Position numbers and translations under genes: made by a program. This document shows positions 48,757 to 63,941 of a DNA stretch of 64,000 nucleotides, piece after piece. Numbering within the stretch: the first letter of the stretch is position 1; every line of letters begins with the position of its first letter. A model generated the notes under the pieces. It saw only the letters and a program-made list of their open reading frames with translations, searched no databases and was not told where the DNA came from. This stretch comes from Oscillospiraceae bacterium (GTDB lineage Bacteria; Bacillota; Clostridia; Oscillospirales; Ruminococcaceae), in assembly GCA_020054675.1 (NCBI GenBank), contig JAIHAL010000002.1, positions 206,042-270,041 on the forward strand. Reading direction: 5' to 3'.

Positions 48757-49779
48757 ATGGCTGTTACAATTAAGCAGATTTCTGAAATATGCGGTGTTTC
48801 AAGAGGAACGGTTGACAGGGTGCTCAATAACCGCGGCAAAGTAAAACCTGAAACTGAAGAACTTGTAAGACGAGTGGCAGAACAGCTTGGGTATGTTCCG
48901 AATTTAGCGGCTAAAACCCTTGCGGCAAAGAAAAAATCCCTTTCGATAGGGATTATAACGGTATCCGAGGGCAATGCTTTTTTTGATGAGGTTTTCAGAG
49001 GCATAAAACAGGCGGAGAGCGAAATATCCCCTTATGGCGCAAGACTTGTAAAGAGGACAATGAAAGGCTATGATACAAGGATACAGCTTGACCTTATGCG
49101 TGAAATTAAAGATGAAATAGATATACTTATTTTAAATCCGATAAGCGACCCTCTTGTTGCAAAAGAAATTGACAATTTTGCCGATTGCGGGATACCGGTT
49201 ATTACTATGAATAATGACATAGAAAACAGCAAACGGCTCTGTTATGTGGGAAGCGATTATATTAAAGGCGGGGAAACAGCATGCGGAATGCTTGGAATAA
49301 TAACCGGCGGGAAGGCAAATATAGCTGTATTAACCGGTTCAATAAAAGTTTTGGGCCATGCGCAGAGAATCCTTGGATTCAAGAATGTAATGCACAAAAA
49401 ATATCCGAATTTTAATGTGGTGACAATAGAGGAAACCAATGACGATGAAATACAGGCATACGATGCTGCACGCAGAATTTTGGAAACCAATAAAGAGATA
49501 AATGCCATATTTGTTGTAGCAGGCGGAGTTTATGGAGTATGCCGGGCTGTAATGTCGCTTGGACTTGAAGAAAAAATAAGCATTGTTTGTTTTGATGCTG
49601 TTCCCACAACGGTTGAAATGATGGAAAAAGGCATAATAAAAGCTACAATCTGCCAGCAACCTTATACCCAAGGATATAAGTCGGTGAAGATAGCTTTTGA
49701 TTTTTTGGTAAGCGGCAAAGCTCCCGAAAAAGAACGTTATATTGTCAAAAATGAAATTAAAATACAAGAAAATTTATAA
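48757..49779 (+). CDS. LacI-family sugar-responsive regulator of the xylose operon
   Basis: A 340-residue regulator: N-terminal LacI HTH ([26 protein letters not shown]) and a type I periplasmic-binding-like sugar domain. The binding part resembles ribose-type substrate-binding proteins ([30 protein letters not shown]). Its position 14 nt before xylA suggests D-xylose or a related pentose as inducer. It is a LacI, not ROK-type XylR. Confidence 0.88.
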
Positions 49780-49793
49780 TGGAGGAAATTTAT

Positions 49794-51107
49794 ATGAGCA
49801 ACTATTTTGCAAATGTACCCGTGGTAAAGTATGAGGGCCCCAAGTCTAAAAATCCCTTTGCATTTAAGTTTTATGATGCTGAAAAGGTGATTGTCGGCAA
49901 AAAGATGAAAGATCACCTTAAATTTGCACTTTCATGGTGGCATACAATGTGCGGTGCCGGCTCAGACCCGTTTGGAGTAGGAACAATGGACCGTTCTTAC
50001 GGCAAAAGCGACCCGATGGAAATTGCCAAGGCAAAGGTTGACGCGGCATTTGAATTTATGCAAAAGCTTGGAATCGAATATTTCTGCTTCCACGATGCGG
50101 ATATAGCTCCGGCGGGAAATGATTTTGCGGAAACAAAGAAGAATCTTGCAGAAATTGTTGATTACATTTCCGGAAAAATGAAGGAAACAGGCATAAAGAA
50201 CCTTTGGGGAACAACAAACGCTTTCGGACATCCGCGCTTTATGCATGGCGCAGGAACTTCATGCTCGGCTGACAGCTTTGCTTATGCCGCTGCACAAATT
50301 AAAAATGCCATTGACGCAACCATTAAGCTCGGCGGCACAGGATATGTTTTCTGGGGCGGACGCGAGGGCTATGAAACTCTCCTTAACACCGATATGGGCC
50401 TTGAGCTTGACAATATGGCAAGACTTATGAAAATGGCTGTTGAGTATGCACGTTCAAAAGGCTTCAAGGGCGACTTCTATATTGAACCTAAGCCAAAGGA
50501 GCCCACAAAGCACCAGTATGATTTCGATACCGCAACCGTGCTTGGATTCCTTAGAAAATATGGCCTTGACAAGGATTTCAAAATGAATATTGAAGCAAAC
50601 CATGCCACACTTGCGGGACATACTTTCCAGCATGAACTTAGAGTGGCAAGGATTAATGGAGTATTTGGCTCAATAGATGCAAATCAGGGCGACCCGAATC
50701 TTGGATGGGATACCGACCAGTTCCCGACAAATGTTTACGAAGCAACACTTTGCATGTATGAAGTTATCAAGGCCGGAGGATTTACAAACGGCGGACTTAA
50801 CTTTGATGCAAAGGTTCGCAGAGCTTCATTTACTTTTGATGACATTGCTCACGCTTATATCAGCGGAATGGATGCTTTTGCTCTTGGACTTATCAAGGCT
50901 TATGAAATAATCGAGGATGGCAGAATAGATAAATTCCTTGATGAAAGATATGCTTCTTATAAGAGCGGAATAGGCAAGGATATCGTTGAGGGCAAGGCAG
51001 ACCTTGAAAAGCTTGAAGCTTATACGCTTGCAAACGGCGAGCCGAAGCTTGAAAGCGGCAGACAGGAAATGCTTGAAGGCATTCTTAACAGCATTATTTT
51101 CGGATAA
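49794..51107 (+). CDS. xylA: Xylose isomerase
   Basis: A 437-residue class II xylose isomerase converting xylose to xylulose. The N-terminal insert typical of class II, the catalytic [22 protein letters not shown] and the metal-binding [16 protein letters not shown] and [16 protein letters not shown] motifs are present. The ATG at 49794 follows TGGAGGAA. Confidence 0.97.
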
Positions 51108-51118
51108 AAATATAAATT

Positions 51119-51143
51119 CCAAAAGGGCGGCCTGCCCTTTTGG
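51119..51143 (+). promoter_or_regulatory. Hairpin between xylA and xylB
   Basis: CCAAAAGGGC pairs with GCCCTTTTGG (10 bp) around GGCCT, followed by CGTTTTC. It may tune xylB expression relative to xylA by partial termination or mRNA processing. Confidence 0.6.
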
Positions 51144-51164
51144 CGTTTTCAAGGAGTGGTTGAA

Positions 51165-52688
51165 ATGAATTACCTGATTGGAATAGACCTTGGAACATCC
51201 GCAACAAAAACGGTTCTTTTTGACGAGGAAGGCAATGTTGTTGCCTCTTCTTCAAAGGAATATCCGCTTTATCATCCTCAAAACGGCTGGGCTGAGCAAA
51301 AGCCGGAAGATTGGTACGACGCGGCAATTTATACTTTAAAGGAAGTTGTTTCAAAATCCGGAGTTGATAATGCCGACATAAAAGGAATAGGACTTTCCGG
51401 ACAAATGCACGGCCTTGTGATGCTTGACAAGGACAACAATGTAATCCGTCCCTCCATAATATGGTGCGACCAGCGTACTGCAAAGGAATGCGAGGAGATT
51501 ACAGAAAAAGTAGGCGCAAAAAGGCTTATAGAAATTACTGCAAATCCAGCGCTTACCGGATTTACTGCTTCCAAAATACTTTGGGTAAAGAACAATGAGC
51601 CTGAGAATTATGCAAAATGCCGCCATATACTTTTGCCAAAGGACTACATACGTTTTAAACTTACCGGAGAGTATGCAACAGAGGTTTCGGATGCAAGTGG
51701 AATGCAGCTTCTTGATGTTCCAAACCGCTGCTGGTCGGATGAGGTGCTTGAAAAGCTTGGAATAGATAAGTCGCTTCTTGGCAAGGTATATGAAAGCCCG
51801 GACGTTACCGGAACGGTAACAAAGGAAATTGCCGAGCTTACCGGACTTAAAGAAGGCACGATTGTTGTCGGCGGAGCAGGGGATAATGCCGCTGCCGCAG
51901 TCGGCACAGGTGTTGTTGAGGATGGAAAGGCATTTACTACAATAGGCTCATCCGGAGTTGTATTTGCACATAGCTCAAATATCAGCATAGACCCGAAAGG
52001 CAGGGTTCATACATTTTGCTGTGCTGTTCCGGGAGCATGGCATGTCATGGGCGTTACCCAAGGCGCAGGACTTTCGCTTAAATGGTTCAGGGACAATTTC
52101 TGTCAGGACTATATGCAAAAGGCCTCCGAACAGGGTGTTGACCCGTATTATCTCATGGATAGGGATGCTGAAACTGTTCCATGCGGCAGCAACAAACTGA
52201 TTTATCTGCCTTATTTGATGGGTGAAAGGACACCTCACCTTGACCCGGATTGCCGCGGGGTGTTTTTCGGACTTTCTGCAATCCATACCAAAAAGGATAT
52301 GATAAGGGCGGTTATGGAAGGAGTATCCTATTCTCTTAAAGACTGCAATGATATTCTTTGCGAAATGGGTGTAAAGGTTGACGAAATGATGGCATGCGGC
52401 GGAGGAGGAACAAGCAAGCTTTGGAGGCAAATGCTTGCCGATATGTATGAATGTGAAGTAAAAACCGTTGCTTCAAAGGAAGGCCCGGCGCTTGGAGCAG
52501 CAATACTTGCTGGCGTTGGCGCAGGAATTTACAAGAGCGTTCCGGAGGCTTGCGCAAAGATTGTAAAAAAGGATAAAACATGTTCTCCCATACCTCAAAA
52601 CAGCGAGGTTTATAAAAAGTATCATCAAATATATAAAGACCTTTATACATCGCTTAAAGCAAGATATAAAGAACTTGCAAATATTTAA
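51165..52688 (+). CDS. xylB: Xylulokinase
   Basis: A 507-residue FGGY-family kinase phosphorylating D-xylulose. GIDLGTSATKTVLFD begins the ATP/sugar fold, with QMHGLVMLD, CDQRTAKEC and the C-terminal ACGGGGTSKLWRQMLAD. The ATG at 51165 has AAGGAG upstream. Third gene of the xylose operon. Confidence 0.96.
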   Translation: MNYLIGIDLGTSATKTVLFDEEGNVVASSSKEYPLYHPQNGWAEQKPEDWYDAAIYTLKEVVSKSGVDNADIKGIGLSGQMHGLVMLDKDNNVIRPSIIWCDQRTAKECEEITEKVGAKRLIEITANPALTGFTASKILWVKNNEPENYAKCRHILLPKDYIRFKLTGEYATEVSDASGMQLLDVPNRCWSDEVLEKLGIDKSLLGKVYESPDVTGTVTKEIAELTGLKEGTIVVGGAGDNAAAAVGTGVVEDGKAFTTIGSSGVVFAHSSNISIDPKGRVHTFCCAVPGAWHVMGVTQGAGLSLKWFRDNFCQDYMQKASEQGVDPYYLMDRDAETVPCGSNKLIYLPYLMGERTPHLDPDCRGVFFGLSAIHTKKDMIRAVMEGVSYSLKDCNDILCEMGVKVDEMMACGGGGTSKLWRQMLADMYECEVKTVASKEGPALGAAILAGVGAGIYKSVPEACAKIVKKDKTCSPIPQNSEVYKKYHQIYKDLYTSLKARYKELANI

Positions 52689-52754: not shown

Positions 52755-54413
52755 TTATTGCATTATTTTGTTTATGGCGCTTATTAAAGCGTAAACAGAA
52801 GCGAGAATTATATCGTTGTCAACTCCGGCGCCCCATGTGATTTTTCCGTTTGCATCGGCTATTCCAACATATGCGACCGCTTTTGATTGCGAGCCTTGTT
52901 CAAGGGCATGCTCCGAATAGCTTGCTATGGTGTAGTTAAGCCCAAGGCTTTCTTTCAAGGCGTTTGAAACCGCATCAAGACGGCCGTTTCCGGAACGGGT
53001 TATGACTTTGTTTACTCCGTTTACTTCAATGGTTACAGTAGCTTCGATTCCGTTTGTCTGTTTATAATGCGCCTCAATAAATTTTACTTTGTCTTGGATA
53101 TTAACGTAATTTTCAACGAAAATTTTATAAATTTCATCCGGCAAAAGTTCTTTGTGCAGATGGTCGGATACACTTTTTACGGCATATCCGAAATTTTCCC
53201 TCATTTTCGGCGGAAGATTGTATCCGTATTTTTGTTCAAGCACATAACCTATTCCGCCCTTGCCGGATTGGCTGTTGATTCTTATTACGTCGCTTTCATA
53301 TTCCCTGCCGATATCTTTCGGGTCTATTGGGAGGTATGGTACTGTCCAGTGGGAGCAATCATTTTCCTCACGCCATTTCATGCCCTTGGCGATAGCGTCC
53401 TGATGGGAGCCTGAAAATGCCGCAAATACAAGCTGACCGCTGTAAGGCTGCCTTTCGTACACTCTCATCCTTGTGACTTCTTCATATACGGATGTAATTT
53501 CAGGGAGATTGCTGAAATCCAGTTCAGGATTTACCCCATGCGAGTACATATTCAAGGCAAGGGTGATTATGTCGACGTTTCCTGTTCGTTCGCCGTTCCC
53601 GAAAAGCGTTCCTTCTATTCTGTCGGCGCCGGCAAGCAGTCCCATTTCGCTGTCGGCAACAGCGCATCCCCTGTCATTATGAGGATGGAGCGAGATAATC
53701 AAACTGTCGCGCCTGTTGAGGTTTTCGCACATATATTCAACTTGTGAAGCGTAAACATGAGGCATGGAATGTTCCACCGTAACCGGCAGATTTATTATTG
53801 CCTTGTTGTCCGGAGTGGGCTGCCATATGTCAATTACTGCATTGCATATGTCGCGGGCAAACTCCATTTCTGTTCCTGTAAAGCTTTCGGGGGAGTATTC
53901 AAATTTGAAATTTCCTTCTGTGGAAGCGGCAAATTCTTTAAGGAGCTTTGCTCCGCTTACAGCAATATCAATGATTTCTTCCTTTGACTTTTTGAATACT
54001 TGTTCGCGCTGTGCCACCGAGGTTGAGTTGTAGAGGTGCACAACAGCGCTTTTAGCGCCCTTTAAAGCCTCAAAGGTCTTTTTTATGATGTGTTCCCTTG
54101 ATTGGGTGAGAACTTGTATTGTCACATCGTCGGGGATTAAATTTTGTTCAATCAAAGTGCGCAGGAAAGTGTATTCAGTTTCGGAAGCGGCTGGGAAGCC
54201 GACTTCAATTTCTTTAAATCCGACTTTTACAAGGAGCTTGAAGAATGTGATTTTTTCTTCAAGGCTCATTGGAACGACAAGTGCTTGATTTCCGTCGCGC
54301 AAATCTACGCTGCACCAAATCGGAGCCTTGTCGATATACTCTTTTTCGGTCCATTTCAGGCATTTCACAGGTGGCATAAAGTATGCCCTTTTGTACTTTT
54401 CATAATTTTTCAT
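52755..54413 (-). CDS. leuA: 2-isopropylmalate synthase, type 2
   Basis: A 552-residue LeuA of the longer type 2 group. The barrel has SVDLRDGNQALV, GFPAASETEYTF, HPHNDRGCAVADSEMGLLAGADRIEGTLFGNGERTGN, and the C-terminal regulatory LeuA allosteric domain begins near residue 420. It condenses acetyl-CoA with 2-oxoisovalerate. The ATG at 54413 has AAAGGGA upstream; an in-frame extension to 54467 would run into the T-box terminator and is not used. A leucine T-box controls it. Confidence 0.94.
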   Translation of the reverse strand: MKNYEKYKRAYFMPPVKCLKWTEKEYIDKAPIWCSVDLRDGNQALVVPMSLEEKITFFKLLVKVGFKEIEVGFPAASETEYTFLRTLIEQNLIPDDVTIQVLTQSREHIIKKTFEALKGAKSAVVHLYNSTSVAQREQVFKKSKEEIIDIAVSGAKLLKEFAASTEGNFKFEYSPESFTGTEMEFARDICNAVIDIWQPTPDNKAIINLPVTVEHSMPHVYASQVEYMCENLNRRDSLIISLHPHNDRGCAVADSEMGLLAGADRIEGTLFGNGERTGNVDIITLALNMYSHGVNPELDFSNLPEITSVYEEVTRMRVYERQPYSGQLVFAAFSGSHQDAIAKGMKWREENDCSHWTVPYLPIDPKDIGREYESDVIRINSQSGKGGIGYVLEQKYGYNLPPKMRENFGYAVKSVSDHLHKELLPDEIYKIFVENYVNIQDKVKFIEAHYKQTNGIEATVTIEVNGVNKVITRSGNGRLDAVSNALKESLGLNYTIASYSEHALEQGSQSKAVAYVGIADANGKITWGAGVDNDIILASVYALISAINKIMQ

Positions 54414-54430
54414 AGCCAAAATCCCTTTCT

Positions 54431-54732
54431 TTGGGGCATAAAAAAACCTCCGTTTCTTTATGCCCAATTTTTTTAAGCATAAAGAGACGAAGGTGAAAAA
54501 TTCACATCCGCGGTACCACTCTTATTGCCGGAATAATCCGACCGCTCTTTCGCATCTGACAATGCATATCCCTGTAACGGGGGAAACCGTTCGAACCTAC
54601 AAGCCAAAAGCCTTCGGCAGACTGCTCAGGGGCGAGTTATGATTTATTCGCAATACCGTTTCGCACCAACCCAACGGCTCTCTGTAAAAACGGATAAACT
54701 TTTTTCCCCGTCATCGCATTTTAAAATTTAAG
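54431..54732 (-). ncRNA. T-box leader, leucine-type, for leuA
   Basis: On the minus strand the leader carries the T-box sequence GGTACCGCGG (54517-54508), a stem I with a likely CTC (Leu) specifier at 54636-54634 in the CATAACTCGCCCC context, and a terminator: GCATAAAG-type stem (54447-54463 with 54478-54494) followed by TTTTTTT. Uncharged tRNA-Leu would stabilise the antiterminator and turn on leuA. The 389-nt stretch between leuA and the next gene contains only this leader and its promoter. Confidence 0.92.
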
Positions 54733-54802: not shown

Positions 54803-55501
54803 TTATTTTTCGAAATTCTTTTTTATAAAATCCATTATTTTTTGGTGCATAAAAATTCCCGTAAGCCCGATTGCAGCGGCCCCGATGAATATTGCCGCGG
54901 CCCAAAACCAGTCGCCCTTTCCGAGATTTCCTCCGACAACCGTTGAACCTATTACCGAAGGCATTCTTGCAAAGGTTGCTATAATAAAAAACCTTAGCGG
55001 CGGGATTTTTGTCAGCGGGACCATATATGTCAGCACATCTTTTGGCGTTCCGGGGATTAAAAAAAGTATAAAAACCAAGGCTTCGAGCTTTGTTTCGTCA
55101 TTAAGTATTTTAAATTTTTTAAATTTATCTTCCGATACAAATACATTTACCAAAGGTTTCCCAATAAACTTTACAAGATAAAAAACGCAGACCGTGCCGA
55201 GCAAAATACCAAAAAGGCATAAAAAGAATCCGCCTGCGGCGCCGAAAAGTATCCCGCCGGCAATTTCAAAAGGCTCTCCGGGGATAAAAGCTACAATTAT
55301 TTGCAGAGCCTGCATTAAAAGGAACAAAAAACCGCCCCAAATTCCAAGCAAATTTACTTTTTCCTGTATTGCAAGTCTGCCCTCGGCGCTGGAAAGGCTT
55401 TTTACGAATGGGATGGAAAATATGGTCACTGCTATTGCAAAAGCAATGAAAATTATAACTGCAGTAAGCCTTATAACGGTTTCCTTATTTATTTTTTTCA
55501 T
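54803..55501 (-). CDS. TVP38/TMEM64-family (SNARE-associated) membrane protein
   Basis: A 232-residue integral membrane protein with about six hydrophobic segments and the family signature IPGEPFEIAGGILFGAAGGFFLCLFGILLG, followed by FLIPGTPKDVLTYMVPLT. The family (DedA superfamily, VTT domain) is thought to be involved in membrane lipid scrambling or transport, but the specific role is unknown. Last gene of a four-gene minus-strand operon with DUF5685, DnaJ-like and another membrane protein. Confidence 0.85.
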   Translation of the reverse strand: MKKINKETVIRLTAVIIFIAFAIAVTIFSIPFVKSLSSAEGRLAIQEKVNLLGIWGGFLFLLMQALQIIVAFIPGEPFEIAGGILFGAAGGFFLCLFGILLGTVCVFYLVKFIGKPLVNVFVSEDKFKKFKILNDETKLEALVFILFLIPGTPKDVLTYMVPLTKIPPLRFFIIATFARMPSVIGSTVVGGNLGKGDWFWAAAIFIGAAAIGLTGIFMHQKIMDFIKKNFEK

Positions 55502-55512
55502 TAAAAACCTCT

Positions 55513-56055
55513 TTATTTAAGCTTTCTTATCAATATCGGCCTTAATTTGTTTATGTAAGTAATGGCAATATTTGAAATTGTAAGGTCATACATTACAAAT
55601 ACAGCATTTGCGGCAAGGATGAAGATGTAAATTCCGTATTTGCCCCATTCGCCCAGTCCGTTAAGAATTTGTCCTATTCCAAATACGTTCATTAAAATCC
55701 AATATGCTGAAATTACGGAAACATTAAAAACGGCAAATTTGCATGCCCATTCCAAGGCTCTGAATTTGATTTTTTCCAAAATCGACTTGAGTATGGGATA
55801 ATAGCCAAAGAAAGCTATAAAAAGCATGGCGGCTTCCTTGTCCGGGGTTATGAAAGCTGATAGCAAGGCTATTGCGCAATAAGTTGCAAAAGCCCATTTT
55901 TTTGAAATTTCAATAACAACCGCCACTAAAAGAATCCCAGCAGTCATGGGGCAAAGATATGTTAAAAACGGTCCAAGTCCAGTAAAGAACATTATAAGCA
56001 AAGCAAGCGCGGCAATTATTCCGCCGAGGGCAACTTTGTAGCTTAATTTTTTCAT
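55513..56055 (-). CDS. Multi-pass membrane protein, ECF-S-like, unknown
   Basis: A 180-residue protein with five or six hydrophobic segments. The opening, KVALGGIIAALALLIMFF, and the size resemble ECF S components, and MYDLTISNIAITYINK near the C-terminus resembles known uncharacterised clostridial membrane proteins. No substrate-binding motif is recognised. It is 11 nt from the TVP38 gene and 15 nt from the DnaJ-like gene. Confidence 0.7.
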   Translation of the reverse strand: MKKLSYKVALGGIIAALALLIMFFTGLGPFLTYLCPMTAGILLVAVVIEISKKWAFATYCAIALLSAFITPDKEAAMLFIAFFGYYPILKSILEKIKFRALEWACKFAVFNVSVISAYWILMNVFGIGQILNGLGEWGKYGIYIFILAANAVFVMYDLTISNIAITYINKLRPILIRKLK

Positions 56056-56070
56056 GGCATAAAATCCTTT

Positions 56071-56703
56071 TTAGCAGCATTCAATCAAATCGCCGCCAAA
56101 GCATTCGCAGCAGCAGTCGGCGCATATAAGTCCTTGGCACATATCGCAGGTGCTGCATCCGCCCGGCGAGCCGTAATAGCGGTAAGGCGAACCGTTCATG
56201 TTCCCGTTTCTTGCTTGCATCATTTGATTGTAGGCCGCTCTGTATTCGGCATTTCCGGGGTCTTGATTAACGGCATTTGTAAAATGCGTAAAAGCTTCGT
56301 TGAGCCATCCTCTGGCATAGCATACACTGCCTTTAAGGAATGACCATTCAGCGTTTCGAGGAACGGAAGGGTTGTCCAGCATGCTGTCTGCAACGGTATA
56401 GTTTCCGTTTTGGATTTGTCTGCGTATTTCGGCAAAATCTCCGTAATACTGGCTTTGAGAATACCCGCCTTGGTTGTACTGGTTGTAGGAATATCCGCCG
56501 GAGTTTTGTCCTCCGCGGCGCATATTCATTATTTCATCGTATGCGGCATTGATTTCTTTCATTTTTTCTTCCGCAAGGTCGGCAAGAGGGCTTTGGCTGT
56601 GCAGGTCCGGGTGATATTTTTTTGAAAGCTCACGGTACGCATCGCGAATCTGTTCATCCGTGGCATTAGGTGAAACTCCTAAAACTCTGTAAGGGTCGTT
56701 CAT
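56071..56703 (-). CDS. DnaJ-domain protein with Cys-rich C-terminus
   Basis: A 210-residue protein. J domain at 1-60 with intact HPD (31-33); Gly/Tyr/Gln-rich linker (62-90); a TPR-like helical segment (115-165); and a C-terminal cluster of ten cysteines (183-210), including CSTCDMC, CADCCCEC and a terminal CC. The tail could bind zinc, iron or form disulfides. J domains recruit DnaK to a specific target, so this is probably a dedicated co-chaperone for the operon. It overlaps the DUF5685-like gene stop by 4 nt. Confidence 0.82.
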   Translation of the reverse strand: MNDPYRVLGVSPNATDEQIRDAYRELSKKYHPDLHSQSPLADLAEEKMKEINAAYDEIMNMRRGGQNSGGYSYNQYNQGGYSQSQYYGDFAEIRRQIQNGNYTVADSMLDNPSVPRNAEWSFLKGSVCYARGWLNEAFTHFTNAVNQDPGNAEYRAAYNQMMQARNGNMNGSPYRYYGSPGGCSTCDMCQGLICADCCCECFGGDLIECC

Positions 56704-57557
56704 TTTGAAAGCTCCTTTTCATTTAAAACTGACATAAAGGTATTTTGAAGTCCGAGGTAAATTATATTGTCAAGTATTGGTTTAAATCTTTCCAAATCAA
56801 GCAGCGAATAAGCGTTGGCAAGTTCCCCAAGCGTAAAATTAATGCTGTCCAAAGCTTCGGCCCTTATTTTTTCCATATCAAAACCATATTCCCTTAAAAG
56901 GAATGGGTTGTAATTTTTCTTTTTATAATCGTCTTTTGCGTCATTTAAAGCATCGATAATGTAAACATATCGTCCAAGCAGATAGCCCATGCGCTTTAAA
57001 ATTCTCTTTTGCTTTTCATCATCCGAAATTTTTTCTGCGACTGCGGATATAATTTCCGCGGTAGGTTCTGCGGCAAGGTCTATGCTTTTGCAGTTTTGCT
57101 TTTCAAGTTCGGATTGTTTTTTCATACTTTTTTCAATAAGCGCTGCAATTTCCGGATAATTCCTTTTTGCTTTTTTATATGCCGGATAAATCAGCGGAAG
57201 AAGCAAAATTGCTCTTGTTTTGCTTAAAAAACCCCTATCGGAAATATCGTCTTTCAATTTGTGGTAAACCAGCATTGTTGCAGCCGCAGCGGTGAAATGC
57301 AGACTTCCCGTGCAGGCAAGGCAAGGCGTTTTTTTAAGGGGATGCGCAACGCACCTTTGAGGTGTTATTTCAGTACCGTCTTTGCCAAGCGCCAAGGAAA
57401 TAAGTCCCACAAACGCAAAATCATAGCTCAAGGTAAACCTTAAAAGAAATCCGAAGCTTTTTCCGGTTTCCTTGCAAAGTCCGCAGTAAACTGCTTTGTA
57501 TGCGTCATATTCGCAAAATTTCATTTGCGGTTTGAAAGGGCGGATATATCCGAACAA
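56700..57557 (-). CDS. DUF5685-like protein with prenyl-synthase-like Asp motifs
   Basis: A 285-residue alpha-helical protein I place with DUF5685. It starts FGYIRPFKPQMKFCEYDAYK and has cysteines 15, 25, 28, 69, 79 and 82 in two groups (CGLC and CLAC). Two aspartate-rich motifs are visible, DDISD (103-107) and DALNDAKDD (202-210), spaced as in all-alpha isoprenoid synthases such as phytoene synthase-like enzymes. That similarity is an inference. TTG 57557 has GGGAGTG 7 nt upstream; the frame extends further but lacks a ribosome site. First gene of the operon. Confidence 0.7.
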   Translation of the reverse strand: MFGYIRPFKPQMKFCEYDAYKAVYCGLCKETGKSFGFLLRFTLSYDFAFVGLISLALGKDGTEITPQRCVAHPLKKTPCLACTGSLHFTAAAATMLVYHKLKDDISDRGFLSKTRAILLLPLIYPAYKKAKRNYPEIAALIEKSMKKQSELEKQNCKSIDLAAEPTAEIISAVAEKISDDEKQKRILKRMGYLLGRYVYIIDALNDAKDDYKKKNYNPFLLREYGFDMEKIRAEALDSINFTLGELANAYSLLDLERFKPILDNIIYLGLQNTFMSVLNEKELSK

Positions 57558-57580
57558 TAAAAAACACTCCCAATTTTTTA

Positions 57581-57598
57581 GTATAACCATAGTTATAC
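57581..57598. promoter_or_regulatory. Palindromic operator before the DUF5685 operon
   Basis: GTATAAC-CATA-GTTATAC, 7-bp perfect arms, located just downstream of the -10 box (57610-57605) around the transcription start. The regulator is unknown. Confidence 0.6.
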
Positions 57599-57604
57599 CT
57601 AATA

Positions 57605-57633
57605 ATTATATCAGTTGCGGCAGTAAAAGTCAA
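57605..57633 (-). promoter_or_regulatory. Promoter for the DUF5685 operon
   Basis: Minus strand TTGACT (57633-57628), 17 nt, TATAAT (57610-57605). Confidence 0.78.
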
Positions 57634-57702: not shown

Positions 57703-57791
57703 TATATATAAAACAAAATTTTACCGCCGGCTGAATAATGTTCTCATGAAAGCCTAAAATATTAAAAAAGCTTTTGTTGGGGAGAACTGCT

Positions 57792-58526
57792 ATGAGAAAC
57801 GGCGATTTTGAAGAAAATGAAGAAAATCCTAAGGGCGAGGAACTTGAAAAGGCGCAGGTTATTGAAAAAATCGGTCAGGTTGTGCCTCATAATGCAAAGC
57901 ACCTGATACATTGCCTTACTATAATAGGTCAGGTGGAGGGGCATTATATACTTCCCCCGCAAAATAAGACTACAAAATACGAGCATATCATGCCTGCGCT
58001 TGTTGCGATAGAACAGGACAGGAGCATAGAGGGGCTTGTGATTATCCTTAATACAGTTGGCGGGGATGTGGAGGCAGGACTTGCGATTGCCGAGCTTATT
58101 GCCGGGATGAAAACACCTACGGTTTCGATAGTAGTTGGCGGAGGACATTCGATAGGTGTTCCTCTTGCGGTCAGCGCAAAACGCTCTTTTATTGTTCCGT
58201 CGGCAACAATGACGATACATCCGGTAAGGATGAACGGCCTTGTGCTTGGAGTCCCGCAAACACTTTCTTATTTTGAGAAAATGCAGGACAGGATAGTAAA
58301 TTTTGTCACAAGGAACAGCCATATAAGCGAGGAACGATTTAGGGAACTTTTGCTGCGCACAGGCGAGCTTGTAATGGATGTCGGCACGGTTCTTGACGGG
58401 GAAGAGGCAGTGCGCGAGGGGCTTATAGACCGCCTTGGCGGACTCAGCGAGGCAATAGAATGCCTTTATGAGCTTATTGAGGGTGCCGATGAGAAATATC
58501 CCGATAAAGGAAATCAAAAGAGGTAA
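57792..58526 (+). CDS. tepA: ClpP-class serine protease TepA-like
   Basis: A 244-residue ClpP/crotonase-fold protein. Family motifs: [19 protein letters not shown], the nucleophile Ser in [19 protein letters not shown] and the catalytic His in TMTIHPVRM. It corresponds to Bacillus TepA (YmfB), a cytoplasmic protease affecting protein translocation and sporulation. The ATG at 57792 has GGGGAG upstream. ylzJ and ftsK follow as in Bacillus. Confidence 0.88.
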
Positions 58527-58530
58527 AATA

Positions 58531-58731
58531 ATGGTTTTGCATACGATTGTAAGTGAATATGATGTTATGTGCAATCAGGCTGAAAACTGCGCATCCAAAT
58601 TTAAGAGTGTCGGAGGCGGGATAGTCGAATATTCAGAAACGGAACAAGGAAATAGGATTTTGCGCCTTTTTTCAACTGACCCGTATATGTATCTGGATGA
58701 AAAGTACAGCCCGTTTTCGCAAATAAATTAA
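58531..58731 (+). CDS. ylzJ: YlzJ-like small protein
   Basis: A 66-residue protein starting MVLHTIVSEYDVMC and ending in a Pro/Tyr-rich FSTDPYMYLDEKYSPFSQ, matching the YlzJ pattern. It lies between tepA and the ftsK side as in Bacillus. GAGG precedes the ATG at 58531; the upstream part of the frame overlaps tepA and is not used. Function unknown. Confidence 0.8.
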   Translation: MVLHTIVSEYDVMCNQAENCASKFKSVGGGIVEYSETEQGNRILRLFSTDPYMYLDEKYSPFSQIN

Positions 58732-58745
58732 CGGAGGAATTTGTT

Positions 58746-59606
58746 TTGACTGTTTTTGAAGGTTTTTTCCAAGGTTTAATACAGGGATTTACGGAGTTTT
58801 TGCCGGTTTCAAGCTCCGGACATCTTTCAATTTTTCAGCATTTTTTTGGAATCAACGGCGAAGGCGCCTTGCTTTCGTCGCTGGTTTTCCATTTGGGAAC
58901 GCTCCTCGCCGTTTTTATTGCGTTTTGGGGCAGGATATCGAGGCTTATCGTTGAATTTTTCTGCCTTGTAAAGGATGTGTTTACGGGAAAATTCAAATGG
59001 TGCAGCATGAATCCCGACAGGAGGATGATAATTATGATTATAATTTCAATCCTCCCGTTGTTTGGATTTTACATATTCAAGGATTTTTTTGCATCCCTTT
59101 CGGAGGATTCAAGCATAGTTGCAGAGGGAATAGGATTTCTGTATACTTCGGCAATTCTTTTTTTGAGCGACCGCTGGGCAAAGGGCAATAAGACTTCCGG
59201 TCAGACGACCGTCAAGGATGCCCTCACGATAGGAGTTTTTCAGTGTATTGCCCTTGTGCCGGGAATTTCACGTTCCGGTTCCACTATTTGCGCGGGACTT
59301 TTTTGCGGGCTTAAAAGGGAGGCCGCAGTTGAATATTCGTTTATTTTGGGCATACCGGTAATACTTGCCGGCGCACTTTCGGAAATTAAGGATGCTTCTG
59401 CACAGGATTTGAATATAGGCATGCTTCCGCTTGCAGTTGGATTTTTAACAGCGGCTGTATCGGGATTTCTGGCAATAAAGCTTATAAAATGGCTTATAAA
59501 GACGGATAAGTTTAAAATTTTTGCTTTTTATACGCTTGCTTTGGGAATTTTGGTTCTTGCGGCGGGAATTTACGAAACGGTTTCCGGAAACAGAATTGGA
59601 TTTTAA
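58746..59606 (+). CDS. uppP: Undecaprenyl-diphosphatase
   Basis: A 286-residue multi-pass membrane enzyme recycling undecaprenyl pyrophosphate for cell wall synthesis. Signature motifs QGFTEFLPVSSSGHL and LVPGISRSGSTI are present. It starts with TTG 58746 after CGGAGGA. Insertion between ylzJ and ftsK is a local variation from the Bacillus order. Confidence 0.95.
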   Translation: MTVFEGFFQGLIQGFTEFLPVSSSGHLSIFQHFFGINGEGALLSSLVFHLGTLLAVFIAFWGRISRLIVEFFCLVKDVFTGKFKWCSMNPDRRMIIMIIISILPLFGFYIFKDFFASLSEDSSIVAEGIGFLYTSAILFLSDRWAKGNKTSGQTTVKDALTIGVFQCIALVPGISRSGSTICAGLFCGLKREAAVEYSFILGIPVILAGALSEIKDASAQDLNIGMLPLAVGFLTAAVSGFLAIKLIKWLIKTDKFKIFAFYTLALGILVLAAGIYETVSGNRIGF

Positions 59607-59636
59607 GTTTTATTGAGGGGTAAAGGTGACTTTAAG

Positions 59637-62045
59637 GTGGCGCGGAAAAAAAGCTCAAAACCTGCAAAAAAGCAGTCTGGCAATCAGGCATGGTCAATAA
59701 TTTTGTTTGCGTGCGGAATACTTTTGTTTTTGCTTGCTCTTGTAGAAGGCGAATCTGCATGGTTTTTCATCCATAATTTGCTTTTTGGGCTTTTTGGGGC
59801 ATCGGCTTTTATATTGCCGGCGGTGGTGATATACGCCGCCTTTATGGTTGCGCTGGACAAGTCCGGCAAAGCTGTTGCCGGAAAGGTCATAGAGGGCTTT
59901 GTGCTCGTGCTGCTTGCAAGCGCCGTTGTTCAGATAATTTTTGTAGGCAACGTTGACGGGAAGAATTTTTTGGACAAGCTGATAAAGCTTTATAAGGATG
60001 GCTCGGAACTCAATGGCGGGGGACTTTTCAGTGCGCTTTTGGGCTGGCCTCTGCTTGCTCTTTTCCAAAAGACGGGAGCGACAATAATCGTTCTTTTGCT
60101 TTCGTTTGTGGTAATTATGTTGCTTGCAAATATAAGCCTTATAGATTTTGTGGGATTTTTTTATAAGCCAATCCGCGGGATAAAAGATGCCGTAAAACAG
60201 GCACATGAGGAGGATTTTAAGCCATCTCCCGGAGCAAAGCGTTTTGAAAATGAAAAGACCGCCAAAAAAGAGGAATCAATTTTAAATAAACGCAAGAAAT
60301 TTGATATAGATATTCCAATTCCCGTAGATAAGAAAAAAGAAGAAAATAAAGAGGAAGAGGCTCAAAACAGCGAACCTTTGCCGATTCATCCGGTAATTTC
60401 GCCTAAGATAACAAAGGATAAGCTTGAAGAAAAGGTAAAAAGCGCAAATGCCGATTTGGAAGAAATCATAAAAAAAGCAGTTGTTACTTCCGAAAATTCG
60501 CCTGAACCTGTTATAGTTGAACCGGACGGACAGACAAGGCTTTATGAGCAGAACAATGAAGTCAATGTGTACAAATATCCTCCGGTTTCGTTGCTGCATG
60601 CTCCAAAAGCCGCTTTGGTTGGAGAAAATGCTCAAGCCGAGCTTAAACTCAATGCGGATACTTTGGTGGATACTTTAAAAAGCTTTGGCGTTCAGACAAG
60701 AATAGTGGATATACACAGGGGCCCTACTGTTACAAGGTATGAATTGCAGCCGTCGGCAGGGGTTAAAATTTCAAAGATAACCGGCCTTGCTGATGATATA
60801 GCTTTAAATCTTGCCGCCGCGGGAGTAAGGATTGAAGCGCCTATTCCCGGAAAAGCTGCGGTGGGGATAGAAGTCCCAAATAAGGTTGTTGATATAGTTA
60901 CCATAAGGGAACTTATTGAAACAAAGGAATTTGAGGAAACAAAGAGCAAGATTTCATTTGCGCTTGGAAAAGATATAGCCGGCAATGCAGTAATAGCCGA
61001 TATTGCAAAAATGCCTCATGTGCTTATAGCAGGCTCTACCGGTTCGGGAAAATCGGTCTGCATAAATTCGATTATCATGAGCCTTTTGTACAAGGCTTCC
61101 CCCGATGAGGTAAGGATTTTAATGATAGATCCGAAGGTTGTTGAACTTGGCATTTACAACGGCATACCGCATCTTTTGATTCCGGTTGTAACAGATCCGC
61201 GCAAGGCCGCCGGAGCACTTTCGTGGGCAGTAAATGAAATGCTTAAAAGGTATAAGCTTTTTGCCGACAACAATGTAAGGGATTTAAAGGGCTTTAACGA
61301 GCTTGCAAAAAATACTCCGGGCATGGACCCTCTGCCGCAGATTGTGATAATCATAGACGAGCTTGCCGACCTTATGATGGCAGCTCCAAGCGAGGTTGAG
61401 GATTCCATATGCCGCCTTGCCCAGATGGCAAGGGCGGCGGGCATGCACCTTGTAATAGCCACACAGCGCCCGTCGGTTGATATAATTACGGGAGTTATTA
61501 AGGCGAACATCCCCAGCAGGATAGCTTTTGCCGTTTCATCGCAGGTGGACAGCAGAACGATACTTGACGGGGCGGGAGCAGAAAAACTCCTTGGCAGGGG
61601 GGATATGCTTTTCTATCCGTCAGGAACGCCAAAACCCGTTCGTGTTCAGGGATGTTTTGTTACCGATAAAGAGGTTGAAGCGGTAGTTTCATATATCAAG
61701 GATTCCATTAAAGCCGATTATGATGAAAATATAATGGAAGAAATTGAGAAGAATTCGCCTGCTGAAAAGGAAGCGCTTAATTCCGAGGGCGGCGGCATTG
61801 AACCTAATGACGAAATGCTTGAAAAGGCAATAGAATGTGTAATTGAGGCAGGACAGGCATCCACATCCTACCTTCAAAGGAGATTGAAGCTTGGCTACGC
61901 AAGGGCGGCAAGGATTGTTGACGAACTTGAACAGCTTGGCATTGTCGGGCCTTTTGAGGGAGCAAAGCCGCGCGCCGTGCTTATGACAAAGGAACAGTGG
62001 TATGAACGCAAACTGCGTTCACAAATGCCGTCCGGCAAAACTTAA
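59637..62045 (+). CDS. ftsK: DNA translocase FtsK/SpoIIIE
   Basis: An 802-residue DNA pump: four to five N-terminal transmembrane helices (~25-170), a charged linker (190-330), then the RecA-like motor with GSTGSGKSV Walker A and IIIDELADLMM Walker B, and a C-terminal gamma winged helix (GQASTSYLQRRLKLGYARAARIVDELE). GTG at 59637 has AAAGGTGA upstream. It clears chromosomes from the septum and may serve sporulation as SpoIIIE. Confidence 0.95.
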   Translation: MARKKSSKPAKKQSGNQAWSIILFACGILLFLLALVEGESAWFFIHNLLFGLFGASAFILPAVVIYAAFMVALDKSGKAVAGKVIEGFVLVLLASAVVQIIFVGNVDGKNFLDKLIKLYKDGSELNGGGLFSALLGWPLLALFQKTGATIIVLLLSFVVIMLLANISLIDFVGFFYKPIRGIKDAVKQAHEEDFKPSPGAKRFENEKTAKKEESILNKRKKFDIDIPIPVDKKKEENKEEEAQNSEPLPIHPVISPKITKDKLEEKVKSANADLEEIIKKAVVTSENSPEPVIVEPDGQTRLYEQNNEVNVYKYPPVSLLHAPKAALVGENAQAELKLNADTLVDTLKSFGVQTRIVDIHRGPTVTRYELQPSAGVKISKITGLADDIALNLAAAGVRIEAPIPGKAAVGIEVPNKVVDIVTIRELIETKEFEETKSKISFALGKDIAGNAVIADIAKMPHVLIAGSTGSGKSVCINSIIMSLLYKASPDEVRILMIDPKVVELGIYNGIPHLLIPVVTDPRKAAGALSWAVNEMLKRYKLFADNNVRDLKGFNELAKNTPGMDPLPQIVIIIDELADLMMAAPSEVEDSICRLAQMARAAGMHLVIATQRPSVDIITGVIKANIPSRIAFAVSSQVDSRTILDGAGAEKLLGRGDMLFYPSGTPKPVRVQGCFVTDKEVEAVVSYIKDSIKADYDENIMEEIEKNSPAEKEALNSEGGGIEPNDEMLEKAIECVIEAGQASTSYLQRRLKLGYARAARIVDELEQLGIVGPFEGAKPRAVLMTKEQWYERKLRSQMPSGKT

Positions 62046-62066
62046 ATTGATGGGAAGAAGTTTTTG

Positions 62067-63941
62067 ATGAACAAATTTTTGCCTGTTTCAAGAGAGGACA
62101 TGCTTGAAAGAGGAATAGAACAGCTTGATTTTATATTAGTTACAGGGGATTCTTATGTTGACCACCCCAGCTTTGGCATAGCCATTATTTCCAGAGTGCT
62201 TGAAGCGGAGGGATTTTCGGTAGGAATTATTGCCCAGCCGGATTGGCGCACGAATAAGGATTTTGAAAAGCTTGGAAGGCCACGGCTTGCATTTCTTGTT
62301 TCGTCAGGGAATATAGATTCAATGGTTGCGCATTATACGGCGGCAAAGAAAAAACGCTCCGATGATGCTTATACCGCCGGAGGAAAGGCAGGCAAGCGGC
62401 CTGACAGGGCGGTAATTGTTTATTGCAAAAAGATAAGGGAGATTTATGGGAATATTCCAATTTCCATAGGCGGCTTGGAAGCTTCACTCAGGAGATTTGC
62501 CCATTATGATTATTGGGATGATGCGGTAAGGCCGTCGATTCTTGTGGACAGTGGGGCAGATATTCTGCTTTATGGAATGTCGGAACATCAAATAACAGAA
62601 CTTGCCCACAGACTGAATGCGGGTGAGGATATACGCTCCATTACGGATATAAGGGGGACTTGCTACCTTACGGAGCCTAAAAATACCCCTTTGGGCGCGG
62701 CGGAATGCCCAAGCTTTGCGCAGGTTTGTGAAAATAAAGAAGCTTATGCAAGGGCGTGCAGGATACAATATGACCAGCAGGATGAAGTTTACGGGAAAAC
62801 GGTTATACAAAGGCACGGGGATAAAATGCTTGTGCAAAATCCGCCTGCAAAAAGCCTTACAACCGAAGAACTTGACAGGGTTTATTCCTTGCCTTATGCA
62901 AGGACATACCACCCTATGTATGAAAAAGACGGGGGCGTTCCGGGGATAGAGGAAGTTGAATTTTCCATAACCCATAACAGGGGATGCTTTGGGAACTGCA
63001 ATTTTTGCTCCATTGCCTTGCATCAGGGGAGAAAGATTTCCTGCCGCAGCGAGGAATCAATACTGGAAGAAGCAAAGCTTTTGACTGCATTGCCAAATTT
63101 CAAGGGTTATATACATGACGTGGGAGGCCCAACTGCAAATTTTAGAATGCCCTCATGCAAAAAGCAGCTTGAACAAGGACTCTGCAAGGGCAAAAAATGC
63201 CTTGCGCCCACTCCTTGCCCAAATCTTGACGTTGACCATTCGCAGTATCTTGATATATTGAGGAAAATCAGAAAAATCAAGGGGATAAAAAAGGTTTTCA
63301 TACGTTCGGGGATAAGATATGATTATTTGATAGAGGATAAAAACGAAGAATTTATGCGCGAGCTTATAGAGCATCATGTCAGCGGACAGCTTAAAGTTGC
63401 GCCGGAGCATTGTTCTGCGGTTGTGCTTGATATGATGGGCAAACCGCATATAGAGGCATATAAAAAGTTTTCCGAGAAGTTTTATAGGATGACGAAATCG
63501 GTGGGGAAAGAGCAGTACCTTGTGCCGTACCTTATGTCGTCGCATCCGGGCTCAACACTTAAAGAAGCTGTGGAGCTTGCGCTTTTTCTCAAAGAGAACA
63601 ACATAAGGCCGGAACAGGTTCAGGATTTTTATCCCACTCCCGGAACAATATCCACATGCATGTTTTATACGGGGCTTGACCCTTATACCATGAAGCCGGT
63701 GTATGTTCCGCGTTCTGCCGAGGAAAAGGCAATGCAAAGGGTGCTTTTGCAGTATTTCAAGCCGCAAAATAAGGAGATTGTAATAAAGGCTTTGATAAAG
63801 GCGGGAAGAAGGGATTTGATAGGACAAGGCAAAAATTGCCTTGTAGAACCGGATATAAAGGAAAAACAAATTACAAAACAGGGAAAGGATAATAGAAAAT
63901 GGCGAAAAGACGGACAAAATTCCGGCCGCAGAAAGCGATAA
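62067..63941 (+). CDS. YgiQ-family radical SAM protein
   Basis: A 624-residue radical SAM enzyme with an N-terminal B12-binding-like region ([31 protein letters not shown]), the cluster motif [12 protein letters not shown], and the YgiQ C-terminal domain with [20 protein letters not shown]. The substrate is unknown. It starts at ATG 62067 (an in-frame TTG immediately upstream is less likely). The last 43 nt overlap the next gene. Confidence 0.9.

Follow-up and report, generated by a model that had tools for sequence, protein, structure and literature searches.

We examined a four-gene locus in a 64,000-nucleotide (nt) stretch of the genome of an Oscillospiraceae bacterium (GenBank assembly GCA_020054675.1, contig JAIHAL010000002.1, positions 206,042 to 270,041 of the forward strand). 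This stretch is referred to as the window, and all coordinates are positions in it. Four minus-strand genes run from 57557 down to 54803 and encode a DUF5685 protein, a J protein, a membrane protein and a VTT protein, in that order. The DUF5685 stop at 56700 overlaps the start of the J gene at 56703 by 4 nt, and gaps of 15 and 11 nt separate the J gene from the membrane protein gene and the latter from the VTT gene; the spacing is as tight as an earlier note, made from the sequence alone, had described. In other genomes the conserved unit is DUF5685 together with a Cys-tailed TPR partner, usually with a J domain, and the third gene joins them in the relatives of the window. The features of the locus are as follows.

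57605..57633, minus strand: sigma-70-type promoter, TTGACT-17-TATAAT with an extended -10, 11 of 12 consensus matches
57581..57598, no strand assigned: perfect 7-4-7 palindrome GTATAAC-N4-GTTATAC at the expected transcription start
56700..57557, minus strand: DUF5685 (PF18937) protein, 285 amino acids (aa), probable TTG start (Pfam E 1.5e-82; fold from the model)
57474..57485, minus strand: C25xxC28 of DUF5685, each Cys in 122/123 aligned rows
57351..57353, minus strand: C69 of DUF5685, adjoining beta strand 64-68, in 122/123 rows
57237..57251, minus strand: first Asp motif of DUF5685, D103-x3-D107, at the end of helix 87-106 (D103 in 123/123 and D107 in 122/123 rows)
56928..56954, minus strand: second Asp motif of DUF5685, D202-x3-D206-x3-D210, at and directly following the end of helix 181-205
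56071..56703, minus strand: partner, 210 aa, with a J domain (HPD intact), a TPR-like region and a Cys-rich tail (Pfam)
56074..56148, minus strand: 25-residue Cys-rich C-terminal tail of the partner, ending in -CC (alignment)
55513..56055, minus strand: membrane protein, probable ECF S-component fold, distant DUF2232 relative (model with a predicted local distance difference test score, pLDDT, of 89)
54803..55501, minus strand: VTT/TVP38 membrane protein, optional member (PF09335, E 7.3e-18)

The first protein matched PF18937 at 277.5 bits against a gathering cut-off of 26.7, and its AlphaFold2 model, built from 81 sequences, reached a mean pLDDT of 93.8 and a predicted template modelling score of 0.91. 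Foldseek placed an octaprenyl-diphosphate synthase first among the PDB matches (E 4.4e-4, the sole match below 0.001). The best VIA-align match had a Z of 18.5 over 240 residues at 3.3 Å; Z was 8 or more in 574 of 998 chains and still stood at 15.6 at rank 50. For comparison, helical models without a clear match typically have a best Z of ∼14 and a rank-50 Z of ∼6 (up to 13). Among the 50 VIA matches listed, 49 are titled isoprenoid or prenyl synthases, geranyl(trans)transferases or prenyltransferases, MoeN5 being an example; the title of the remaining one, ACP-HEPS2, is uninformative. Squalene/phytoene synthases were absent from these 50, which is uninformative on membership. We concluded that the DUF5685 protein is predicted to have the all-alpha isoprenoid-synthase fold, and the isoprenoid-synthase-like fold guessed at in the earlier note is supported by the AlphaFold model and its Foldseek and VIA matches.

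Conservation was read from an alignment of 123 DUF5685 rows, comprising the window and 122 other loci (121 of the 122 sequences are distinct; the fragment L151 was excluded). D103, E152, Y199, D202, D206 and D210 are invariant in all 123 rows, so that the two Asp-rich motifs seen earlier are not only present but conserved, D107 being the only one of their five Asp with an exception. The D-x3-D-x3-D arrangement is closer to the motifs found in class I terpene synthases and in squalene/phytoene synthases than to DDxxD. Both of the CxxC pairs claimed for this protein exist in the sequence; C25/C28 proved to be the conserved one, and in the second pair, C79/C82, the residue after C79 varies. A second DUF5685 copy in one genome (L174 in genome G306) is divergent: it keeps the Asp motifs, and the CxxC and C69 are missing in the alignment.

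The PF18937 search was positive in 33 of 299 genomes of a phylum draw, and in 64 of 80 genomes of a family draw; the one positive among 14 control genomes was Thermotoga maritima. In a larger draw, 45 of 398 genomes were positive, one of them below the cut-off. In the order and the class around two divergent genomes, DUF5685 occurred in 2 of 12 and 2 of 5 genomes, and no new carriers were found there. The gene neighbourhood was examined in two sets of loci. The 80 nearest loci are the best 80 of at least 570 DUF5685-encoding stretches in named genome contigs, mostly titled Oscillospiraceae, Ruminococcus or Clostridia bacteria; the 59 wider loci come from the phylum and family draws with 1.5 kb flanks and include that of the window. 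The J/TPR partner follows DUF5685 in 79 of the 80 nearest loci and is present in 54 of the 59 wider ones. The gene-3 family is nearly constant in the nearest set (78 of 80 loci) but was found in 30 of the 59 wider loci and 10 of the 30 from the phylum draw, which weakens the third gene as a fixed member. A VTT gene on the same strand was present in 12 of the 80 nearest loci, 70 of which have more than 4 kb of downstream sequence. When the neighbours of the 80 nearest loci were clustered, no family beyond DUF5685, the partner and gene 3 occurred in more than 13 loci. The proposal of a neighbourhood shared with other genomes therefore stands for DUF5685 and its J-type partner, stands in part for gene 3 and does not extend to the TVP38-type gene. 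The idea of a four-gene system did not hold: the TVP38-type gene is optional, and the third gene also occurs in 10 of the 16 family-draw genomes in which no DUF5685 was found.

DUF5685 relatives were also seen on four faecal scaffolds deposited as phage (MT835652.1, MT836096.1, MT835749.1 and MT835850.1; unannotated, one marked UNVERIFIED) and on two plasmid-collection records of more than 380 kb (NZ_AP023421.1 and OY725846.1). In one plasmid record the two genes of the pair are labelled 'DUF5685 family protein' and 'J domain-containing protein'. In Pusillibacter the DUF5685/partner pair lies among housekeeping genes.

The J domain of the window partner matches PF00226 (E 8.2e-17), and the TPR_2 match (E 0.02) falls below the cut-off. 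The protein is not a canonical DnaJ, scoring 57.4 bits against an NCBIfam equivalog cut-off of 377.2. Two partner alignments with hand-chosen rows (23 rows in A2 and 35 in A6) gave 56 distinct sequences, and 49 of them, including that of the window, carry HPD. An initial script scoring of 123 loci counted 95 partners with HPD, 19 without it and 9 loci without a partner; after hand checks the 122 tree rows (again without L151) comprised 98 with HPD, 16 without HPD and 8 without a partner. Three rows, L086, L116 and L168, were labelled as J for the tree: L086 and L116 carry HPD further in, and the label of L168 was judged from the partner row L042 of the same genome. On the best (quick) tree the J state changes 4 times and the Cys-rich tails stay; when the HPD-less label is set against all other rows there are 5 changes, 3 of them forced by well-supported branches. 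The J domain is gone but the tail is kept in six loci (L149, L150, L152, L153, L155 and L217). That the tail is kept when the J domain is lost speaks for a function centred on the tail. This fits an adaptor or co-chaperone role of the partner as well as prenylation of its tail, both discussed below. In locus L142 (6898-7882) two tandem Cys-rich TPR-type genes follow DUF5685, the first of them without a J domain.

The common form of the tail is CDxCxxLxCADCCCECMGGDLIxCC. The last 30 residues of the 56 distinct partners hold 4-12 Cys, and the ten C-terminal cysteines counted earlier in the window protein were found again as 10 Cys in its last 30 residues. A wider tally covered 167 tails, with some loci counted twice and the tail of L041 cut by the contig end; in it, the last 26 residues contain on average 8.8 Cys in tails with an ECMGGD-type motif (85 of the 167) and 7.3 in the others, vs. 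0.31 for DUF5685 C-termini. We then used a strict tail profile built from 24 tails beside DUF5685, which could miss different tails elsewhere. It matched 13 of the 299 phylum-draw genomes, all 13 with DUF5685 and each tail 332-588 bp from it; there were 13 matches in the 33 genomes with DUF5685 and none in the 266 without (Fisher 3e-14, relatedness uncorrected). In the family draw it matched 33 of 80 genomes, 32 of them with DUF5685 within 551-780 bp; in the exception, G324, the partner gene is cut by the contig start. In the genomes sampled, every strict tail motif lay beside DUF5685, apart from one contig-edge case.

The observations are a predicted fold, conserved Asp motifs and a near-constant neighbourhood. 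The reading that we tentatively prefer, while rating it somewhat short of probable, is that DUF5685 is an unrecognised family within the all-alpha isoprenoid-synthase superfamily and works as a pair with a dedicated TPR/Cys-tailed adaptor or co-chaperone. The two Asp motifs would hold Mg2+ and ionise an allylic isoprenyl diphosphate, and the Cys3 site of DUF5685 (C25, C28 and C69) may bind a metal. The partner would dock DUF5685 via its TPR region and tail, maintain the folding of the enzyme, with recruitment of DnaK by those partners that have an intact J domain, and take the enzyme to the membrane; there the lipid side might be handled by the ECF-S-like protein, in some loci together with a VTT protein.

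Several results weigh against this adaptor reading. Sequence profiles find no isoprenoid-synthase relative: in the Pfam search of the window DUF5685, PF00348 and PF00494 (SQS_PSY) were both unlisted up to E 1; among 32 DUF5685 members SQS_PSY was matched by 1 (E 0.22) and PF00348 was absent from the 16 families listed; and profiles A4 and A1 run against PDB chains returned mainly designed helical proteins and low-scoring helical chains, with no isoprenoid synthase. Among the genomes with DUF5685, 20 of 33 in the phylum draw and 32 of 64 in the family draw are without a match to the strict tail profile. Of the 114 scored partners, 16 lack the J domain or its HPD and, given the 4 changes on the tree, recruitment of Hsp70 would not be the core of the function. 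Eight of the 122 tree rows have no Cys-tailed partner gene. Hsp70 genes lie near 4 of the 111 loci with a J-type partner, probably near background; the overall figure, 6 of 123 loci, is too weak to carry weight alone.

Some divergent loci place DUF5685 beside isoprenoid genes. In four of them (L144, L145, L146 and L148), a gene with a match to a polyprenyl-synthetase profile lies no more than 3.5 kb from DUF5685; Pfam confirmed it as PF00348 in L144 (2.9e-49) and L145 (2e-42). None of the four has a separate tailed partner gene. L145 and L148 carry an Hsp70 gene (confirmed by Pfam HSP70 in L145), and a DUF2232 membrane protein is encoded in L145 (5.4e-9), with another below the cut-off in L146; in L145, L146 and L148 these neighbour genes lie on the strand opposite DUF5685. 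In L144 (5001-6128) DUF5685 is fused to its own His- and Cys-rich tail, with 14 Cys in the last 50 residues. As a general partner, polyprenyl synthetase was rejected: it was found in 4 of the 12 loci without a J-partner-profile match (L145 and L148 being from one family) and in none of the 111 with a J-type partner, within flanks of up to 6 kb. The context favours isoprenoid chemistry, but it covers 4 of the 123 loci.

The main rival to the adaptor or co-chaperone reading, which we consider unlikely, makes DUF5685 a peptide prenyltransferase of the ComQ/PalQ kind that S-prenylates the Cys tail of its partner, giving a membrane-anchored TPR/J protein, a bacterial counterpart of the cysteine-string proteins. 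It would draw on the isoprenoid-synthase fold and conserved Asp motifs, on the adjacency of the enzyme and partner genes, on the restriction of the strict tail motif to the side of the enzyme gene, the contig-edge case apart, and on the tail outliving the J domain. ComQ, ChrPC-P and PalQ are trans-isoprenyl diphosphate synthase (trans-IDS)-like peptide prenyltransferases, but all characterised enzymes of this type are reported to act on Trp (PMC13290415). The ends of the tails cut both ways. Many partners end in -CC, namely 47 of the 56 distinct ones from the hand-chosen alignments and 88 of the 167 in the wider tally, and a review (PMC13290415) gives XXCC as one of the C-terminal motifs on which eukaryotic GGTase II acts. 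Of the 85 tails with an ECMGGD-type motif, 76 end in -CC, but just 12 of the 82 others do; -CC is thereby weakened as a universal ending, and the lower count in the wider tally weakens the S-prenylation reading with it. Nor are the tails on average more hydrophobic than DUF5685 C-termini (means of 7.7 and 8.6 hydrophobic residues per 26 vs. 8.9). Strong hydrophobicity was seen in some divergent tails, which have 3 to 6 Cys; a hydrophobic tail as a general membrane anchor was rejected, as 12-14 of 26 residues were hydrophobic in just 15 of the 82 rows without the ECMGGD-type motif, duplicates included. In L145-L148, where there is no tailed partner, DUF5685 nevertheless retains every motif, the Cys3 site among them, which counts against the tail as the sole substrate. 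The Cys-rich tail fused to DUF5685 itself in L144 also speaks against S-prenylation, as does the single tail gene of the window's genome, this one being the only copy found with the tail profile.

An improbable alternative is that the Cys tail forms a metal site (Zn or Fe-S) or serves as a metal donor for the Cys3 site, the pair being a metal-dependent enzyme and its metallochaperone. The presence of C25, C28 and C69 in 122 of 123 rows and the abundance of Cys at the ends of the 56 partners agree with it; the number and spacing of the Cys vary strongly between clades, unlike a fixed metal site, and the Cys3 site persists in loci without a tailed partner. More doubtful still is a role of DUF5685 as a regulatory subunit that has no catalytic activity of its own and serves a polyprenyl synthase, as the small subunits do in plant GGPPS: the Foldseek matches include rice GGPPS with its recruiting protein (rows 38-39, E ∼0.07-0.08) and a polyprenyl-synthetase gene lies near DUF5685 in the four divergent loci, but all five motif Asp are kept in at least 122 of 123 rows, which is unexpected for a dead subunit, and loci with a J-type partner lack the synthetase gene in their flanks of up to 6 kb.

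The third and fourth genes of the window look like a separable membrane pair. For the gene-3 protein of the window there was no Pfam match. The first five Foldseek rows of its model are S-components, none of them significant (E 0.058-0.54). VIA gave a best Z of 9.8 over 151 of 180 residues, although Z below about 13 can reflect a common helical arrangement. ECF S-components or ECF transporters, RibU, ThiT and 4huq among them, fill the first 13 VIA rows, followed by a designed protein at Z 6.1 and others at 4.3 or less. DUF2232 was weakly matched by 3 of 47 gene-3 members (best E 2.5e-4). The ECF-S-like character proposed from the sequence thus receives moderate support from the VIA comparison of the model and none of significance from Foldseek. 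The TVP38-type call for gene 4 was confirmed by PF09335 (score 65.7 vs. a cut-off of 33.9). Gene 3 was found in 70 of the 80 family genomes: in 52 near DUF5685, in 8 elsewhere in a genome with DUF5685 and in 10 where no DUF5685 was found. In three loci of genomes of the last kind (L200, L204 and L206) it stands directly before a VTT-like protein, as read by eye.

Both the promoter and the perfect palindrome at the start site that were described earlier are present in the sequence. The region holds 11 promoter-like sites vs. 9.0 expected by shuffling, which is no enrichment, so the promoter match alone proves little. The palindrome at 57581-57598 is a possible operator. It was rejected as the mark of a regulon: sites with up to two mismatches number 5 in the whole genome vs. 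20 for a reversed control pattern. With identical arms it recurs only in L064, a 90%-identical relative; the 79 other loci for which upstream sequence was available lack it. When 7-nt arms of any sequence were allowed, 19 of 81 loci (the window included) had a palindrome upstream vs. 8.35 in shuffles. The ATG at 57590, the start chosen in the open reading frame list, falls inside the palindrome. Judged from the sequence, the DUF5685 start is most likely the TTG at 57557, because it is preceded by GGGAGTG and yields the conserved start of the family, xFGY.

Just downstream of the operon lies a T-box leader (54480-54723, minus strand; Rfam RF00230, 105.6 bits), which precedes a 2-isopropylmalate-synthase-like gene (52755-54467). 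Reading of the translations gave a LacI-type regulator (48757-49779) followed by xylose-isomerase-like and xylulokinase-like genes on the plus strand (48757-52688), and a divergent plus-strand cluster (57774-63941) with a ClpP/TepA-like protease, a UppP-like protein, an FtsK/SpoIIIE-like ATPase and a YgiQ-like radical-SAM protein. The undecaprenyl-PP phosphatase gene of this cluster (58746-59606) was rejected as part of the system; UppP occurs in none of the 80 nearest loci, which makes it a chance neighbour.

In a full-text search of 5.39 million open-access papers, DUF5685 appeared only as a name in a list, in PMC9403866. PF18937 was not found in the open-access full text, nor was any description of the pair (subscription papers and preprints lie outside this search). 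The gene pair is widespread but unstudied, and once DUF5685 is assigned to the isoprenoid-synthase superfamily and given its dedicated Cys-tailed partner, an operon that had no name would become an enzyme-adaptor pair open to testing. If the tail were the acceptor, the locus would encode a bacterial cysteine prenylation system, as opposed to the Trp targets given for all characterised trans-IDS-like prenyltransferases in PMC13290415.

Compared with the trans-isoprenyl diphosphate synthases (PF00348) and MoeN5-type enzymes, DUF5685 is alike in its predicted fold and in the position of its Asp motifs near helix ends, but lacks a profile match and has extra beta strands with C69 and the Cys3 site. 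The gene-3 protein probably shares the fold of the ECF S-components and DUF2232, to which the weak matches of a few family members point; the window protein itself is without a Pfam match. Cysteine-string proteins (DNAJC5) combine a J domain with a cysteine string and are palmitoylated by DHHC enzymes. The partner resembles them in both elements, and differs in having a TPR region and the gene of a prenyl-type enzyme next to its own. The ComQ-ComX and PalQ systems are alike in their isoprenoid-synthase superfamily membership, in the adjacent partner gene and, in many clades, in the conserved C-terminus of the partner. According to PMC13290415, the known ComQ/PalQ enzymes act on Trp and have in common a Gln directly preceding the second motif; unlike them, none of 32 DUF5685 rows has Gln before D202, and the tail of the window partner offers Cys and has no Trp. 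In plants, ORANGE has no J domain but retains a zinc finger of the DnaJ type, and it stabilises phytoene synthase (PMC12063368). The two systems are alike in having a DnaJ-related Cys-rich partner of an isoprenoid enzyme whose J domain can be lost; ORANGE, however, has a DnaJ-type zinc finger and is plastidial, whereas the window partner has another kind of tail, and the likeness is one of logic. We infer that the partner may position and stabilise DUF5685 at the membrane as an adaptor or co-chaperone, comparable to ORANGE and phytoene synthase.

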